Shown: positions 2,930 through 31,261 of the stretch, piece after piece
How positions within the stretch are numbered: the first letter of the stretch is position 1
How the letters are laid out: each line of letters starts with the position of its first letter
NCBI RefSeq assembly: GCF_945881795.1
Contig: NZ_CAMCVG010000012.1
Location: forward strand, 1 to 39,900
DNA length: 39,900 bases
DNA from: Rhodoferax sp. OV413
Lineage (GTDB): Bacteria; Pseudomonadota; Gammaproteobacteria; Burkholderiales; Burkholderiaceae_C
Reading direction: 5' to 3'
Notes under the pieces: model-generated
What the model was told of the DNA's origin: nothing
What the model saw: the letters and a program-made list of their open reading frames with translations, nothing else
Databases searched by the model: none
Made by a program: the position numbers and the translations under genes

Positions 2930-3784
2930 ATGGTCGGTATGCGCGTGTCGGTTTGGGGTGTCGTTGGCTTGGTGTGTGCTCTGATGAGCGCCTGCAGTTC
3001 CACGTCACTGAGCCGCGCCCCGGTCGAAGACCGGCAACAGCAATCTTCCGCGTCACCGGCAAGCGCCGATGCCCGCGCGCAAGCCGTGAAGTCGCCGCCG
3101 GGTTTTGATAACGCGGGCAAGCCCGGCTACTACACGGTCAAGCCCGGCGACACCATGATCCGCATCGGTCTGGAGAGTGGCCAGAGTCCCAAGGACATTG
3201 CGAGCTGGAGCGGGGTGGAAAACCCCAACAAGATTGAGATTGGGCAGGTGCTGCGTGTGGCGCCTCCCGCTAAAGCTGAAACGGCGAGCGTGAAGCCAGT
3301 GACATCCAGCAGCAGCACGACCACGGCTTTGCCACCTGCCTCGCCCGCTGCTGCCCAGTCCAAGGCCGCACCCGCACCTGCTGCCGCCGCGGCTACTTCT
3401 GCTGTGGGCGACGAGGCAGTGGCGTGGATGTGGCCCAGCAATGGCTCGGTGCTGGCAGGATTCGATGAGTCAAAAAATAACAAGGGTCTTGATATCGGGG
3501 GCAACGCCGGTGACGCGGTGTTGGCGGCTGCGGAGGGCAAGGTGGTGTATGCCGGATCCGGGCTTCGGGGGTACGGCAACCTTGTCATCCTCAAACACAA
3601 CAACACCTACCTGACGGCTTACGCGCACAACCAGACGCTGCTGGTCAAAGAAGATCAGACCGTCAAGAGAGGTCAAAAGATTGCGGAAATGGGTAGCAGC
3701 GACGCGGACCGCGTCAAGCTTCACTTTGAAGTGCGCAAGCAGGGTAAGCCGGTCGATCCATCTAAATACCTGCCCGTGCGCTAA
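2930..3784 (+). CDS. nlpD: NlpD-like murein hydrolase activator, lipoprotein
   Basis: The 284-residue outer-membrane lipoprotein should activate a cell-division amidase (AmiC type). A signal peptide ends in a lipobox-like LMSACSS, acylated Cys near residue 22. A LysM domain follows (YYTVKPGDTMIRIG ... IGQVLRV, about residues 65-110), then an Ala/Pro/Ser-rich linker and a C-terminal LytM/M23 domain from about residue 165. The metal ligands are degenerate: the usual HxGxDI reads NKGLDI and the last HxH reads KLHFE, so it is expected to be a non-catalytic activator. The Shine-Dalgarno AGGGAAG lies just before the start. rpoS does not follow. Confidence 0.93.
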   Translation: MVGMRVSVWGVVGLVCALMSACSSTSLSRAPVEDRQQQSSASPASADARAQAVKSPPGFDNAGKPGYYTVKPGDTMIRIGLESGQSPKDIASWSGVENPNKIEIGQVLRVAPPAKAETASVKPVTSSSSTTTALPPASPAAAQSKAAPAPAAAAATSAVGDEAVAWMWPSNGSVLAGFDESKNNKGLDIGGNAGDAVLAAAEGKVVYAGSGLRGYGNLVILKHNNTYLTAYAHNQTLLVKEDQTVKRGQKIAEMGSSDADRVKLHFEVRKQGKPVDPSKYLPVR

Positions 3785-3857
3785 CCCGCCGCTTGGCGCC
3801 CCTGCAAGCGCCATCGCAGTGCGGCGGTAGTCGGTTCTGACCTGAGACAATTCAGGC

Positions 3858-5327
3858 ATGACAGACGAACAAAAAAACGAAATTCTCCCCCCTCAGCGCT
3901 GGCCTGAGGGCTGGCTGGCAGTGAAGTCGCTCGATCTGGAGGCGCAGGGAGTCGCCCACCGGGCGGACGGTAAGGTGGTTTTCATTGACGGTGCTCTTCC
4001 CTTTGAGGTGGTGAGTGCGCAGATCCACCGTAGCAAGACCAGTTTTGAGAAGGGCACGCTGACCGACATTCACGTGGAGTCGTCCCAGCGGGTGCAGCCC
4101 GAGTGCCCGCATTTCGGTTTGCACGAAGGTGCCTGCGGCGGTTGCAAGATGCAGCACCTGCATGTGGGCGCGCAGGTCGCGGTCAAACAGCGGGTGTTGG
4201 AAGACAACCTCTGGCACATCGGCAAACTCAAGCCCGACAACGTGATCCGCCCCATTGAGGGCCCTGCATGGGGCTACCGCTATCGGGCGCGCCTTTCGGT
4301 GCGCTTTGTGCGGAAAAAGGGCACAGTGCTAATCGGGTTTCACGAGCGCAAGAGCCGCTATGTGGCAGATATGAAGGTCTGCCCGGTGCTCGCGCCGCGG
4401 GTCAGCGACATGCTGGTGCCTTTGCGGCAGCTGATCGAGTCGATGGACGCGGTGGAGACCCTGCCCCAGCTGGAGCTGGCCATGGGCGATGTGGGCAGCG
4501 GTCAAGCTGGCGATTCAGGCGTGATCGCACTGGTGTTGCGTCACATGGAGCCTCTCTCCGAGGCTGACCTGGGCCGCCTGCGAGCCTTTGCGGCGTCAAA
4601 CGCTGGTTTGCAGTGGTGGCTGCAACCCAAAGGGCCCGAGACGGTTCACCGGCTTGACGAGTTGCCCGGTTTTGAAACCGGCCAGCTGTCGTATGCGTTG
4701 CCGGATTTCGGTATTTCCATGGCCTTTCGCCCGACCGACTTTACCCAGGTTAATCCGCATATCAACCGCGTGTTGGTGTCCCGCGCTCTGGGGCTTTTGC
4801 AAGTGCAGAAGACGGAGCGGGTGATTGACTGGTTTTGTGGCCTTGGCAACTTCACCTTGCCGCTGGCTACGCAGGCGCGCGAGGTGCTGGGTGTCGAAGG
4901 TTCTGAGGCGCTGGTCGTCCGTTCGCGTGAGAACTTAGCGTTCAATTTGAGGCAAAAAAGGGCTTTAGATCAGGCGGATATTGCGCTAGCAGCTACAAAA
5001 TTCGTAGCGAGAAACCTGTTTGAGATGACACCCGAAATCCTGATGGGCGATGGCGTAGCAGACAAATGGCTGGTCGATCCGCCCCGCGAGGGAGCCTATT
5101 CCCTTGTGCAAGCGTTAGCGGCTTTACACCAGTCACCAGATCTGCGGCAGGGCTGGACGCCCCCCAAGCGCATTGTGTATGTCAGCTGTAACCCCGCTAC
5201 ACTGGCGCGCGACGCGGGTGTGCTGGTGTATGCAGCGGGTTATGTGTGCGCCAAGGCGGGGGTGGTGAATATGTTTCCCCACACTGCGCATGTGGAAAGC
5301 ATCGCAGTGTTCGAGTTGCAAGCTTGA
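3858..5327 (+). CDS. rlmD: 23S rRNA (uracil-1939-C5)-methyltransferase RlmD (RumA)
   Basis: The 489-residue enzyme methylates U1939 of 23S rRNA. A TRAM-like N-terminal domain is followed by four cysteines for a [4Fe-4S] cluster (C83, C93, C96, C175; the CGGCKMQH motif is clear). The SAM motif [14 protein letters not shown] is at 324-337, DPPREGAY at 407-414, and the catalytic Cys is C444 in [11 protein letters not shown]. The protein is longer than E. coli RumA (433 aa). Residues about 365-384 are encoded by a copy of the dispersed repeat described separately (4954-5008), and the frame stays open. In other betaproteobacteria rpoS usually separates nlpD from this gene; here only 73 bp lie between them. 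Confidence 0.95.
4954..5008 (+). repeat. Dispersed repeat copy inside the rlmD reading frame
   Basis: This 55-bp segment aligns without gaps to the intergenic copies at 31206-31260 (37 of 55 identical by hand) and 18011-18065 (34 of 55). Against the latter, the last 27 bases match at 23 positions and include the shared run AGCAGCTACAAAAT. The common landmarks are TTTAG, then 12 bases, then TTGCGC, and TAGC at the end. It is read in frame as roughly residues 366-384 of RlmD, just after the SAM motif region. Confidence 0.7.
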
Positions 5328-17997: not shown

Positions 17998-18065
17998 AAG
18001 CGCTGGATGCCAAATCGGCCTCCAGCGCTTATAGGGTATGCGCAAGCAGCTACAAAATCTATAGC
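17998..18065 (+). repeat. Dispersed repeat between dnaB and phoH, with hairpin
   Basis: The right part (18011-18065) aligns without gaps to copies at 31206-31260, 4954-5008 and, in reverse, 22331-22385. The left part forms a perfect hairpin AAGCGCTGGA (17998-18007) / TCCAGCGCTT (18021-18030), with GCC/GGC pairing inside. The right end has GCTA ... TAGC (18049-18065). It overlaps the last two codons and the stop codon of phoH and lies in a convergent region, so it may also act as a transcription end. Confidence 0.75.
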
Positions 18066-19768
18066 ACTTCGCTGGCAAAGTCTGCTAGGCGGGAGCGCTC
18101 ACCGCGGGCCAGGGTGATGTGCCCGCCGTGCGGCCATCCCTTGAACTTGTCCACCGCAAAGGTCAGACCCGATGAGCCCTCGGTGAGGTACGGCGTATCG
18201 ATCTGGGCCAGGTTGCCCATGCAAATGATCTTCGTGCCGGGGCCGGCGCGGGTAATGAGCGTCTTCATCTGCTTGGGCGTCAGATTTTGCGCCTCGTCGA
18301 TGATCACGTACTTGTTCAAAAACGTGCGGCCGCGCATGAAGTTCATGCTCTTGATTTTGACCCGGCTGCGGATGAGCTCATTGGTGGCAGCGCGGCCCCA
18401 CTCGCCGGAGGCGTTGTCTGTCTTGCCCAGAACCTCCAGGTTGTCGTCCAGCGCGCCCATCCAGGGGCCCATCTTCTCTTCTTCGGTGCCAGGCAGGAAT
18501 CCGATGTCCTCGCCCACGCTGACGGTGGCGCGGGTGACGATGATTTCGGTGTAGCGCCTGTCATCGAGCACCTGCGTCAAGCCGGCGGCAAGCGCCATCA
18601 GCGTCTTGCCGGTACCGGCTGTACCCGTCAGGGTGACGAAGTCGACCTCGGGGTCGGTCAGCAGGTTCATGGCGAAGTTTTGTTCTCGGTTGCGGGTGGT
18701 TACGCCCCAGACGGAGTTCTTCAGGTGGTTGAAGTCCTTGAGGGTTTTGAGCACCGCAGTGGTGCCGCGGATTTCGGTCACGCGGGCATAAAGGCTCGGC
18801 TCGCCGGGCGACTCGAAATACACAAACTGATTGATCAGCATCTGCGGAACCACCGGTCCATCCACCTTGTAGAAGGTGTGCGGGCCTTGCTGCCAGCTCT
18901 CCACCGCCTGGCCGTGCGTCGCCCAGAAGTCGGTGGGTAGCGCCAGCGAGCCGGAGTAGAGCAGGTCGCCGTCTTCCAGCGTTTTGTCGTTCTGGTAGTC
19001 GTCGGTGGCAAGCCCCAGGGCGCGGGCCTTGACCCGCATATTGATGTCCTTGGACACCAGCACGACTTCGCGCGGGGCAAAGTGCTGACGCAGGGCCTCC
19101 ACCACTCCCAGAATCTGGTTGTCCGCCTTGCCCTGTGGCAGGCTGGTGGGCAGCGTGTAGTTCAGCGGCTGCGTCTGGAACATCAGCTTGCCGCGGGCAT
19201 CTTTGTGGCCGGTGCTATCCAGAGAAAGTCCAGCGGTAATGTCGGCATCGGGCGCGCCGGCGAGTGAATCCAGCGTGCGGCTGGTCTGGCGGGCATTGCG
19301 GGCGACTTCGGTCATGCCCTTCTTGTGGCCGTCGAGCTCCTCGAGCACGATCATGGGCAGATAGATGTCGTGTTCCTCAAAGCGGAACAGGCACATCGGG
19401 TCATGCAACAAGACATTGGTGTCTAGCACAAACAGCTTCTTGGGGCCGTTGGGCTTGGACTTCTTGCTGCGCTTGGCCTGCGCGCCCGGCGCCGCAAGGC
19501 TGGCAACGGTGCGTCCGATGGCGGGGTCTGCTGCCGAAACGGGCACCGGCGCAGTGGCAGGGAATGGTGCGCGGGTCAAAGCAGGGGATTGCGTTGACTT
19601 CTTGGACGAGCGGGCGCTGGACCGCTCGGTAGGCGGCTCTGCATATTCTGTGATCGGAGCTTCTTGTGCGGTCTTGCGGGCCGTGCGGGAGGCAACTCGC
19701 GCTGGCGTTTCAAAGTCCTTGGCGCTCAATCGGTCGGCACGCTTGGACGGGGCAGGTGGCAGTGGCAT
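18059..19768 (-). CDS. PIN domain-PhoH ATPase protein (PhoH2 type)
   Basis: The 569-residue protein has a basic, Ser/Pro-rich N-terminal region of about 105 residues, a PIN ribonuclease domain (KLFVLDTNVLLHDPMCLFRF from about residue 108, then VLEELDGHKKG) and a PhoH ATPase domain with Walker A TGTAGTGKT near residues 382-390 and VIIDEAQNLTPKQMKTLITRAG. PIN-PhoH proteins are thought to be RNA helicase/ribonucleases. The last codons (GTG CTA TAG) lie in the dispersed repeat. The Shine-Dalgarno is weak at the chosen ATG. The N-terminal region is low complexity, so the true start could be further downstream. Confidence 0.93.
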   Translation of the reverse strand: MPLPPAPSKRADRLSAKDFETPARVASRTARKTAQEAPITEYAEPPTERSSARSSKKSTQSPALTRAPFPATAPVPVSAADPAIGRTVASLAAPGAQAKRSKKSKPNGPKKLFVLDTNVLLHDPMCLFRFEEHDIYLPMIVLEELDGHKKGMTEVARNARQTSRTLDSLAGAPDADITAGLSLDSTGHKDARGKLMFQTQPLNYTLPTSLPQGKADNQILGVVEALRQHFAPREVVLVSKDINMRVKARALGLATDDYQNDKTLEDGDLLYSGSLALPTDFWATHGQAVESWQQGPHTFYKVDGPVVPQMLINQFVYFESPGEPSLYARVTEIRGTTAVLKTLKDFNHLKNSVWGVTTRNREQNFAMNLLTDPEVDFVTLTGTAGTGKTLMALAAGLTQVLDDRRYTEIIVTRATVSVGEDIGFLPGTEEEKMGPWMGALDDNLEVLGKTDNASGEWGRAATNELIRSRVKIKSMNFMRGRTFLNKYVIIDEAQNLTPKQMKTLITRAGPGTKIICMGNLAQIDTPYLTEGSSGLTFAVDKFKGWPHGGHITLARGERSRLADFASEVL

Positions 19769-20978: not shown

Positions 20979-21100
20979 GGCGGCTCGGTGAGGTTGGGGC
21001 AAACGGCGGGTTGTGCAGCGCACGGCGGGAGGGCGGCTGCGGGGCCGAACTGTGGTCAAATTATAGGTTTCGCCCCGCGCTGACTCCTTCCGGAGGGACT

Positions 21101-22327
21101 TTGAAAACCATACAGAAATCTGCCAAGCTGGCCAATGTGCTTTACGACATCCGCGGGCCCATCATGGACGCCGCGCGCCAGATGGAAGACGAGGGCCAGA
21201 AGATCATCAAGCTCAATCTGGGCAACCTGGCACCGTTTGGTTTTGATGCGCCCGAGGAAATCCAGCAGGACATGATCCGCAACCTGCCCAACTCGGCCGG
21301 TTACTCTGACAGCAAAGGCATTTTTGCGGCCCGCAAGGCGGTCATGCACGAGACCCAAAAGCAGGGCATTGCCGGTGTGACCCTGGATGACATCTATCTG
21401 GGCAATGGCGCCAGCGAGTTGATCACCATGGCGACCAACGCGCTGCTGGATAACGGCGACGAGCTCCTGCTCCCCATGCCCGACTACCCCCTCTGGACGG
21501 CGGCGGCCAGCCTCTCAGGCGGCACGCCGGTGCACTACCTGTGCGACGAAGCCGGGGGCTGGATGCCCGATCTGGACGACATCCGCGCCAAGATCACCCC
21601 GCGTACCAAGGGCATCGTGGTCATCAACCCTAACAACCCGACCGGTGTTTTGTATTCCACCGAGCTGCTGCAAGGCATCGTGCACATTGCCCGCGAGCAC
21701 GGGCTGGTCATCCTGGCTGATGAGGTCTACGACAAGGTGTTGTACGACGGAGTGAAGCATGTGGCGCTGGCTGCGCTGTCCACCGATGTACTCACGCTCA
21801 CCTTCAACTCCTTGTCCAAGAGCTACCGCTCCTGCGGCTACCGCGCCGGCTGGATGGTGGTGTCGGGTAATAAAAAGGCAGCAGCAGACTACATCGAGGG
21901 GCTCAACATGCTGTCGAACATGAAGCTGTGCTCCAACGTGCCCGGGCAGTGGGCCATTCAGACCGCGTTGGGCGGCTACCAGAGCATCAACGATCTGGTG
22001 TGTGAGGGCGGGCGTCTACGCCGCCAGCGCGACCTGGCTTATGCGCTGATTACTGCGATTCCTGGTGTGAGCTGCGTGAAGCCGCAGGCGGCGCTGTATA
22101 TGTTCCCCCGGCTCGATCCCACGGTGTACCCCATCGCTGACGACCGGCAGTTCTTTCTGGAGCTCCTGCGCGAAACCCGCGTGATGCTGGTGCAAGGCAC
22201 CGGCTTTAACTGGCACGCGTCGGACCACTTCCGCATCGTTTTTCTGCCGCACGAGGACGATTTGCGCGAGGCCATTGGCCGGATTGCCAGGTTTCTGGAA
22301 CACTACCGCAAACGCTTCGGCACCTGA
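21101..22327 (+). CDS. alaA: Alanine aminotransferase AlaA (PLP-dependent, class I)
   Basis: The 408-residue enzyme should transfer the amino group from glutamate to pyruvate. It follows E. coli AlaA almost throughout: KLANVLYDIRGPIMDAAR, LNLGNLAPFGFDAPEEI, PLWTAAASLSGG, DLDDIRAKITPRTKGIV, NPNNPTG, PLP lysine K240 in NSLSKSYR, and ALGGYQSIND. The start is a TTG at 21101, which gives MKTIQKSAKL, matching the N-terminus of E. coli AlaA, with GGAGGG 3 bp upstream. The open frame to 21011 is not family sequence. It begins the alaA-hom-thrC-moe/moa block. Confidence 0.95.
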   Translation: MKTIQKSAKLANVLYDIRGPIMDAARQMEDEGQKIIKLNLGNLAPFGFDAPEEIQQDMIRNLPNSAGYSDSKGIFAARKAVMHETQKQGIAGVTLDDIYLGNGASELITMATNALLDNGDELLLPMPDYPLWTAAASLSGGTPVHYLCDEAGGWMPDLDDIRAKITPRTKGIVVINPNNPTGVLYSTELLQGIVHIAREHGLVILADEVYDKVLYDGVKHVALAALSTDVLTLTFNSLSKSYRSCGYRAGWMVVSGNKKAAADYIEGLNMLSNMKLCSNVPGQWAIQTALGGYQSINDLVCEGGRLRRQRDLAYALITAIPGVSCVKPQAALYMFPRLDPTVYPIADDRQFFLELLRETRVMLVQGTGFNWHASDHFRIVFLPHEDDLREAIGRIARFLEHYRKRFGT

Positions 22328-22330
22328 AGC

Positions 22331-22385
22331 ACTCTGAAATTGATAGCTGCCCACGCATACCCGGCAACGGCCCGAAGCACTTTTT
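22331..22385 (-). repeat. Dispersed repeat between alaA and hom, reverse orientation
   Basis: Aligned without gaps to the reverse complement of 18011-18065, 33 of 55 positions agree, including TAGCTGC and CGCATACCC. It fills most of the 72-bp gap between alaA and hom. Confidence 0.6.
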
Positions 22386-22399
22386 AACCTGAAGACGAT

Positions 22400-23743
22400 A
22401 TGAAACCGATACAAGTAGGCCTGCTCGGCATTGGCACCGTAGGAAGCGGCACCTTCCATGTGCTCCAGCGCAACCAACAAGAAATTCAGGGCCGCGCCGG
22501 TCGCGGCATCGAGATCACCATGGTGGCTGACCTGGACGTTGAGCGCGCAATGAGAATCGTCGGGCCCGACGTACAAGTGGTCAATGACGCGCGGGCGGTG
22601 ATTGCCAACCCCGAGATCGACATCGTCGTCGAGCTGATCGGCGGCTACGGCATTGCCAAGGCGCTGGTGCTTGAGGCCATTGCGGCGGGCAAACACGTGG
22701 TCACCGCCAACAAGGCACTGCTGGCAGTGCATGGCACCGAAATTTTTGCGGCCGCCTCTGCCAAAGGCGTCATGGTGGCGTTTGAAGCGGCGGTGGCCGG
22801 CGGCATTCCCATCATCAAGGCGCTGCGCGAGGGGCTGACCGCCAACCGCATCCAGTGGATCGCCGGCATCATCAACGGCACGACTAATTTCATCCTCTCG
22901 GAAATGCGCGACAAGGGGCTGGACTTTGACGTCGCGCTCAAAGAAGCGCAAGCCCTGGGTTATGCCGAAGCCGACCCGACCTTTGACATCGAAGGCGTGG
23001 ACGCCGCCCACAAGATCACCCTGATGAGCGCCATTGCGTTCGGCATCCCGGTGCAGTTTGACAAGGCCTATGTGGAAGGCATCACCAAGCTGGGAGCCGC
23101 AGACATCAAATACGCCGAGCAGCTGGGCTACCGCATCAAGCTGCTGGGAATTGCCAAGCGCCGGCTTCCTGACGCGACCCATCGCGCGGATGGCATCGAG
23201 CTGCGCGTGCACCCCACCCTGGTCCCGGCCAAGCGCCTGATTGCCAATGTGGAGGGCGCAATGAACGCGGTGATGGCCCATGGCGATGCGGTAGGCACCA
23301 CGCTTTACTACGGCAAGGGCGCGGGCTCCGAGCCCACCGCCAGCGCGGTGATTGCCGACCTGGTCGACATCACGCGCCTGCACACCGCAGACGCGGCCCA
23401 ACGCGTGCCGCCCCTGGCCTTTCAGCCCGGCGCGATGCGCAACACCCCGGTGCTGCCGATGGGCGAGGTGTTTACCAGTTACTACCTGCGCCTGCGCGTA
23501 GCAGACGAAGCCGGCGTGCTCGCCCGGGTCACCGGCCTGCTGGCCGAGGCCGGCATCAATATCGACGCGGTGCTCCAGCGCGAGGCCGATGAGGTGAGCG
23601 GCGAGGCGGCCACGCAGACCGACGTCATCATCCTGACCCACGACTGCATGGAAGCCAAGATGGACGAGGCACTCGCCCGCATGCAGGCGCTGCCCACCGT
23701 GCTGCAACCCATTACCCGCATCCGCAAGGAAGAGCTGGCCTGA
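22400..23743 (+). CDS. hom: Homoserine dehydrogenase
   Basis: The 447-residue enzyme reduces aspartate semialdehyde to homoserine, the branch point to threonine and methionine. The Rossmann motif GLLGIGTVGSGT is at the N-terminus. The catalytic domain has VTANKALLAVHG, GGIPIIKALREGL, GIINGTTNFILSEM and EADPTFDIEGVDAAHKITLM. A C-terminal ACT domain (LRLRVADEAGVLARVTGLL, about residues 360-435) suggests allosteric control by threonine. thrC follows after 25 bp. Confidence 0.97.
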   Translation: MKPIQVGLLGIGTVGSGTFHVLQRNQQEIQGRAGRGIEITMVADLDVERAMRIVGPDVQVVNDARAVIANPEIDIVVELIGGYGIAKALVLEAIAAGKHVVTANKALLAVHGTEIFAAASAKGVMVAFEAAVAGGIPIIKALREGLTANRIQWIAGIINGTTNFILSEMRDKGLDFDVALKEAQALGYAEADPTFDIEGVDAAHKITLMSAIAFGIPVQFDKAYVEGITKLGAADIKYAEQLGYRIKLLGIAKRRLPDATHRADGIELRVHPTLVPAKRLIANVEGAMNAVMAHGDAVGTTLYYGKGAGSEPTASAVIADLVDITRLHTADAAQRVPPLAFQPGAMRNTPVLPMGEVFTSYYLRLRVADEAGVLARVTGLLAEAGINIDAVLQREADEVSGEAATQTDVIILTHDCMEAKMDEALARMQALPTVLQPITRIRKEELA

Positions 23744-31164: not shown

Positions 31165-31202
31165 GCGGGGCGAAAGCTTTGGTTGGCGAGTGTGATTTTT
31201 GA

Positions 31203-31260
31203 GATCAAATCAGCCTTTAGCGCCCGTGTTTATTGCGCAAGTAGCTATGAATTTAGTAGC
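31203..31260 (+). repeat. Dispersed repeat at the 5' end of the truncated dsbB-like gene
   Basis: The 55 bp 31206-31260 align without gaps to 18011-18065 (36 of 55) and to 4954-5008 (37 of 55). The strongest shared strings are CAAATC, TGCGCAAG-AGCTA and the terminal TAGC. It lies between the YehW-like permease stop and the dsbB-like frame. Confidence 0.7.
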
Positions 31261-31261
31261 G

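Follow-up and report, generated by a model that had tools for sequence, protein, structure and literature searches.

The window, that is the whole 39,900-nucleotide stretch of DNA analysed, carries the methyltransferase gene rlmD and, inside its coding sequence, one of four copies of a motif of about 65 bp that were found in the window at E < 1e-6 with the R1 model (Table 1). R1 is a model of sequence alone, trained on 17 other copies from the same genome (alignment A1), and the rlmD copy was excluded from its training. The rlmD match spans positions 4945–5010, is gapless over model positions 3–68 of 69 and ranked 45th out of 150 scored matches. Three of the four window copies lie on the forward strand, while the fourth, on the reverse strand, was absent from the earlier note on this DNA. 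A matrix trained solely on 26 intergenic copies of the genome gave five window positions above 0 (73.7, 59.6 at rlmD, 58.6, 29.0 and 22.8), the next one scoring -2.0.

Table 1. The rlmD gene and the motif copies in the window.
Feature	Position	Strand	Evidence
rlmD, 23S rRNA (uracil-1939-C5)-methyltransferase, host of a copy	3858..5327	+	NCBIfam NF009639, E 1.1e-179, above cut-off
Motif copy in rlmD, encoding residues ~363-385	about 4944..5010	+	R1 44.0 bits, genome-wide E 4e-11; matrix score 59.6
Motif copy at convergent 3' ends of dnaB and phoH-like gene	18006..18067	+	50.1 bits; R1 training copy
Weaker motif copy between ORFs 21011-22327 and 22400-23743	22330..22390	-	25.7 bits, window E 3.4e-7
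Motif copy, intergenic	31196..31261	+	60.3 bits; among R1 training copies

The earlier note had described 55 bases of rlmD (4954–5008) as a dispersed repeat inserted in frame in a surface loop. The identities it gave are exact (37/55 with 31206–31260 and 34/55 with 18011–18065), its figure of 23/27 for the final 27 bases applies to the copy at 18039 (21/27 against the copy at 31234), and the reading frame is open across the stretch as it said. The resemblance over those 55 bases is real but the true match is longer. In an AlphaFold model of RlmD (35-row alignment, mean pLDDT 88.5) residues 371–378 are predicted as coil, in line with a loop, but residues 363–370 form the end of a helix and residues 379–384 a strand, so the motif would cover more than the loop. 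In the window rlmD lies directly after nlpD (3784–3858, 73 nt). Three relatives (L284, L290 and L296) have an extra gene between the two, which we take to be rpoS, and this gene has a motif copy of its own near the N-terminus (NRPLAPVDIAQVAPDFIAD). RlmD has a second variable site near query residue 425–432, where the match is split by an extra stretch in G078, G102, G121, G132, G135, G137, G164 and G175.

The R1 model was also run against the whole genome, where at least 150 matches were found. This number is a lower bound since all 150 scored candidates, out of 1649 from the first look, passed, the worst of them at E 4e-6. At E 0.01 or better, 72 matches were observed in 430,775 bases of stretches taken from the same genome, which extrapolates to roughly 390 for this genome, an estimate that is too high if anything because the stretches were chosen for carrying copies. 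With the matrix, 80 places in the same bases scored 0 or higher (26 of these being the training copies), compared to one place in the reversed control and one in the Markov-3 control, and no place reached this score in 112,447 bases from three motif-poor genomes. The complete genome G007 also had at least 150 matches. A dispersed high-copy family, as the earlier note had supposed, is thus present, and the genome search that it had proposed, in which a lack of copies beyond chance would have spoken against its reading, returned these copies. The resemblance of rlmD to the repeat is not due to chance.

The consensus of 159 copies (TTTAGAGTCAAATAGGCCTCTAGCGCCCGTGGAATATGCGCAAGCAGCTATTAAATTAATAGCAA) holds about 61 bits over 65 columns, a value that is inflated on account of the copies having been selected by score. 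Conservation is spread over all of the roughly 65 columns with the best run being TGCGC-n2-GCAGCTA followed by TAGC. No base-pair covariation was detected among column pairs of the 159 distinct copies. Dependence between columns was seen almost solely between neighbours, mostly within A/T runs in which AAA and TTT are exchanged, and the A/T tracts are placed about 10 and 21–23 columns apart. Neighbour dependence together with A/T switching suits a double-stranded site that is read partly by shape. A hairpin or RNA element was rejected in view of the missing covariation and of single-strand DNA folding, in which the consensus did no better than its shuffles (z +0.66, with 149 out of 200 shuffles folding as well). 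The 69 copies compared within the genome had a mean identity of 57% and none exceeded 83%, meaning that no recent copying is seen. One near-identical pair of copies, L002 and L003, also has similar flanks and appears duplicated or assembled twice, given the shared flanks and the position of L003 at a contig end. In G007 the 150 best copies were split 76/74 between the strands and randomly spaced, and the best-arc difference in a replichore test was matched by 57 of 200 permutations. A replication-linked strand signal of the KOPS or Chi kind was accordingly rejected, as G007 has no strand bias. A blastn search of plasmids with one copy gave no match at E 0.01, which says little for a motif as degenerate as this one. 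Intermediate scores were few, with 8 of the 80 places falling between 0 and 20.

The position of the copies relative to genes was evaluated for 53 copies of at least 30 bits in the window and 20 further stretches of the same genome (431 kb in total). In line with the earlier note, which suggested counting copies in other coding sequences, 21 lie inside predicted genes; an equal number are intergenic, four are within a gene but less than 30 nt from its end, and seven partly overlap a gene. As predicted coding sequence makes up 93% of the examined bases, copies inside genes are under-represented yet common. The in-gene class was assigned by a simple codon-model gene finder and is supported by Pfam for 27 proteins; in fact, all 27 motif-bearing proteins that were scanned matched a Pfam family with E ≤ 1e-3. 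Many of the genes are housekeeping genes, and 13 copies fall within a single Pfam match, the proteins concerned being alanine racemase (Alr), dihydropteroate synthase (FolP), TrpF, GlmU, HemD, glycerophosphodiesterase, YhhN, FtsJ methylase, the Cca head domain, MIP channel, HI0933-like, the class-II tRNA synthetase core and RlmD. In-gene copies occupy several reading frames and run in both directions relative to the gene (22 opposite, 16 same). Intergenic copies lie a median of 4 nt from gene 3' ends, and gaps between convergent genes are enriched in copies (9 of 31 copies compared to 25 of 197 gaps).

Out of 37 genomes of the genus, 16 had from 112 matches up to the counting limit of 137, one had 13, four had a single match and 16 had none, meaning that motif status is nearly all-or-none among genomes of one genus. 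How far coding copies fit the motif over and above the demands of the protein was evaluated with synonymous shuffles, in which codons were redrawn from the usage of the gene itself at a fixed protein sequence and scored with the matrix from the 26 intergenic copies. The rlmD copy of the window lies at z 6.2 over its shuffles, with none of 300 reaching its score. For RlmD, all 15 motif-rich genomes gave z 3.1–7.2 while 18 motif-poor genomes gave z -2.2 to 2.0, none at z 3 or higher; the real score was reached by none of 300 shuffles in 14 of the motif-rich genomes and by one of 300 in G012. This comparison omits G002 (two fragments) as well as G009 and G011 (no match). For Alr, 12 of 13 motif-rich genomes gave z 4.3–7.4, the miss being G009 at 0.5, against none of 16 motif-poor genomes; fragments in G012, G025 and G029 were omitted, and G023 was placed in neither group for RlmD and Alr. 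Mann-Whitney p values for the RlmD and Alr comparison were about 1e-6 and 1e-5, with phylogeny ignored. In GlmU, z was 3 or higher in 13 of 15 motif-rich genomes (G009 at 0.5 and G013 at a rounded 3.0 fell short) against none of 14 motif-poor rows, which include G023 with its 13 copies and omit the partial L389. In FolP the same threshold was reached in 15 of 16 motif-rich genomes, the miss being G022 at 2.1, against none of 11 motif-poor genomes; L410, L411 and L415 were omitted for internal stops, and L397 and L404 were kept despite one stop each. The motif-rich G009 is without the motif at both Alr (L246) and GlmU (L365) and has it at FolP (z 3.3). The fit to the motif exceeds coding need and is realised by substitution in existing codons, tolerated amino-acid changes included.

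Length comparisons of the host proteins bear on how the coding copies arose. The motif region of Alr is gapless across 30 genomes of the genus, whether the DNA is motif-like or not, and that of FolP is gapless across 27 genomes regardless of motif status. When Alr, FolP and TrpF were compared to solved homologues no gap was found at the motif, and conserved residues of Alr and FolP persist within it. GlmU has about 7 residues more than its solved homologue at the motif and is longer in motif-rich genomes, and Cca has 6 residues more than a distant homologue. The RlmD loop N363–F382 is 14 or 18 residues long in all 33 motif-rich genomes. Among the 48 genomes with two copies or fewer it has 12–18 residues in 36 and 6–7 in the other 12, the short form belonging to more distant genera of the family on one side of the tree. 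Beyond the family, 15 of 16 cases have 5–7 residues, and E. coli RumA is without about 12 of the loop residues. The 18-residue form occurs in 10 motif-rich genomes and in one zero-copy genome, L044. The net gain in RlmD is 7 or 11 codons, against the approximately 22 expected from a 66-base insertion. The earlier note had likened the rlmD copy to Rickettsia palindromic elements and had asked whether the loop is restricted to a lineage, taking the same segment in genomes lacking the repeat as evidence to the contrary. In fact 24 of 36 zero-copy genomes have a loop of 12–18 residues, and this together with the gapless Alr, FolP and TrpF and the small gain in RlmD leaves the insertion reading unsupported as it was stated. 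For RlmD alone, a partial insertion that took place long ago, when the group originated, is possible. Spacers were also inspected. The one between pcm and nlpD is short in most loci, the motif copy that was followed sitting elsewhere, and the one between dnaB and phoH varies in length in motif-poor genomes too, the gene ends there being extrapolated.

The distribution of the motif was followed further across the family, where 48 of 120 genomes gave matches at E ≤ 1e-3 and 29 of those had at least 25 under stricter filters and a counting limit of 42. The family alignment covered 49 of 118 matched genomes (the 29 best apart from the window, plus 20 from further down the list) in addition to 34 of the genus. 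RlmD-motif bearers include Acidovorax radicis, A. benzenivorans, A. soli, Curvibacter delicatus, Simplicispira metamorpha, S. psychrophila and Rhodoferax MAGs. A match inside rlmD was found in 26 of 80 loci; five weak match rows, including L282 and L302 in rlmD, were left out of the later locus set. In 77 of 81 rows the presence or absence of the motif at RlmD matches the status of the genome, 32 having both and 45 neither. Three have the RlmD motif with only 2 copies found in the genome (L104, L116 and L126) and one is motif-rich without it (L128). On an RlmD tree built without the loop columns genome status requires 10 changes, 5 of which are forced by supported branches; L043 (13 copies) and L113 (16) are omitted from this comparison. 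Supported branches hold five independent pairs, of which 4.3 go the same way and none the opposite way (median p 0.125), and a p value of 0.05 is out of reach with only five pairs. L131 (G063) and L133 (G076) are supported sisters, one being motif-rich with a motif-like RlmD while no copy was found in the other. Across genera, motif-rich genomes retain the motif at the same places in the genes, and genomes that lack the motif do not have it there.

In IMG/VR viral contigs (L420–L448) the strict core pattern was found in 29 stretches and 26 of these had a full-length match. Some of the viral copies lie inside phage genes, such as those for repressor-like proteins, the small subunit of terminase and primase. 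In several cases a repressor-like phage protein contains the motif in frame close to its C-terminus (KYWPELAQAPANTAQAATETVA).

Two competence genes were considered as the partner of the motif and showed no association with it: ComEC was found in 12 of 16 motif-rich and 18 of 20 motif-poor genomes, and DprA in 15 of 16 and 19 of 20, respectively. No ComEC match was obtained in G026, a motif-rich genome with a completeness rating of 99%.

That a recognition motif is evolving in place is highly probable. The best explanation, to which we give an even chance, is a degenerate directional motif of about 65 bp that is read by a machinery recognising double-stranded DNA in many Comamonadaceae and is subject to an uptake-like drive. 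An uptake-type drive is proposed on the basis of traits the motif has in common with uptake signal sequences (USS), namely abundance, presence on both strands and in genes as well as gaps, origin by substitution, conserved places and loss; as the actual cause, an uptake-type signal is given slightly less than an even chance. The force would be molecular drive or selection, as for USS. DNA with better sites would be preferentially taken up and recombined into the chromosome, stretches that are already site-like would be pulled toward the motif, and sites would erode once the system is lost. Counting against it are a length several times that of the 9–12-bp cores of known uptake signals, ComEC and DprA that do not track motif status, the exceptions G009, L128, L104, L116 and L126, and the small number of independent pairs. 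The few intermediate scores also count against a gradual drive, as gradual accumulation might leave more of them. These same few intermediate scores, combined with gapless replacement, are what would be expected if pieces of the repeat had overwritten partly similar DNA in one step at unchanged length, through ectopic conversion or single-strand annealing. We consider such overwriting very improbable, as no near-identical copies were found among those compared, L002/L003 aside, and the surviving conserved residues of Alr and FolP and the several frames and both directions of the copies fit piecemeal substitution better.

Uptake would play no part if the motif were bound by a chromosomal protein with a role in nucleoid structure, segregation, repair or self-recognition, being directly selected and lost together with that protein. 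We regard this main rival as unlikely, yet it agrees with a double-strand motif of great length in which only neighbouring columns depend on each other and A/T tracts are spaced, with a near all-or-none presence within the genus that competence genes do not track, and with the full-length motif in 26 of the 29 viral-contig stretches picked by the core. It is at odds with the random spacing and absent replication strand bias of the 150 best copies in G007 and with the strong adherence to consensus, which PMC1626085 describes as unusual for protein-binding sites; no candidate protein was found. The viral copies bear on both the uptake and the chromosomal-protein reading. Insertion of a mobile palindromic repeat, of the Rickettsia or REP-like kind and occasionally in frame, is improbable. 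Dispersal in at least 150 copies, in-frame positions in many proteins, the extra GlmU residues in motif-rich genomes, an RlmD loop exceeding that of more distant genera by 7 or 11 residues and the near-identical L002/L003 pair with its flanks all speak for it. They are opposed by the gapless Alr, FolP and TrpF and the RlmD loop of zero-copy genomes, and also by the low identity between copies, the missing covariation and a fold no better than shuffles. Chance, or protein-level conservation with codons that are merely repeat-like, draws on a shuffle expectation that is raised when a genome is motif-rich (the null mean for the RlmD of the window is 6.1, compared to about -3 to -44 in motif-poor genomes). 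It is refuted by z values of 3–7, which nearly every motif-rich genome and no motif-poor one shows, and by the E value of 4e-11 from an independent model. Returning to the recognition motif, we tentatively suggest a reading that we hold to be less than evenly probable: an undescribed Comamonadaceae recognition system whose family-wide mark of 'self' of about 65 bp, an uptake signal or a protective tag, would have altered codons and in places the amino acids of core enzymes such as RlmD, Alr, FolP and GlmU, would have been lost repeatedly with erosion of its sites, and would be carried in genes of host phages.

If true, this would constitute a third uptake-signal family with a far longer, shape-like motif and many natural losses among close relatives, and the losses would make both receptor and function testable through genes that track the motif. 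Such tests are practical as cultured bearers exist (Acidovorax radicis, Curvibacter delicatus and Simplicispira). The motif also shows that the codons used by core enzymes, and some of their residues, can be set by a DNA signal rather than by the protein, with consequences for how conservation, selection tests and recombination are interpreted in these freshwater and soil bacteria.

Rickettsia palindromic elements are insertions with palindromic structure, dispersed and found in frame in unrelated proteins. The present motif is likewise dispersed and in frame in unrelated proteins (27 scanned here), but unlike those elements it leaves no gap at Alr and FolP and displays no covariation. REP/REPIN elements (GTAG- and CGTC-tagged; PMC3733652) are similarly short, of high copy number and often near gene ends; they differ from the present motif, in which there is no covariation or conserved hairpin and 21 of 53 strong copies lie in predicted genes. 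A term search of the main text of PMC3733652 for six genus or order names of the motif-bearing group found none of them.

Uptake signals with a genome-wide drive are described from two families, Pasteurellaceae and Neisseriaceae, in PMC1939737 and PMC7811141. In the literature an uptake-biased drive is argued to underlie signal accumulation (PMC1939737), USS in coding genes are attributed to substitution instead of insertion by the same gap argument (PMC1626085), and a gene-end bias is reported for Pasteurellaceae signals (PMC2346458). The motif resembles USS and the DUS of Neisseriaceae in its hundreds of copies, its occurrence in genes and gaps and on both strands, and its strong over-representation. 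Like USS, its coding copies in Alr and FolP arose gaplessly by substitution, the picture being mixed elsewhere since GlmU and RlmD differ in length. It is unlike both in measuring about 65 bp in place of a short, near-invariant core of 9–12 bp, in belonging to another bacterial family and in not being tracked by the presence of ComEC or DprA, an uptake role being inferred here.

Fragments of the core were already listed in 2017 as potential novel motifs (PMC5217627, Table 7). In that paper GCTTAT(N)5AAGCG of Acidovorax ebreus has 114 copies, 5 of them in genes (94% intergenic), and ATAGCT(N)22CAAAAG of Polaromonas naphthalenivorans has 125 copies, 18 of them in genes (81% intergenic). Both word pairs are placed near gene ends, often between convergent genes, and their role is given there as unknown. 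In our data (named loci, 1.39 Mb) all seven occurrences of GCTTAT(N)5AAGCG lie in four Acidovorax loci, mid-motif when judged by eye, while the link to ATAGCT(N)22CAAAAG rests on one copy, its single occurrence in the stretches of the studied genome being inside a called copy. A literature search, made mostly without subscription journals, found no paper that joins both 2017 motifs or gives the full motif or its coding imprint, and none was found for six literal core sequences. What is provisionally new is therefore the full length, the gain and loss across the family and the imprint on proteins. Compared to the two unconnected word pairs of PMC5217627, a single cross-genus motif of about 65 bp is described here, with a large coding share, an origin in place and many losses.
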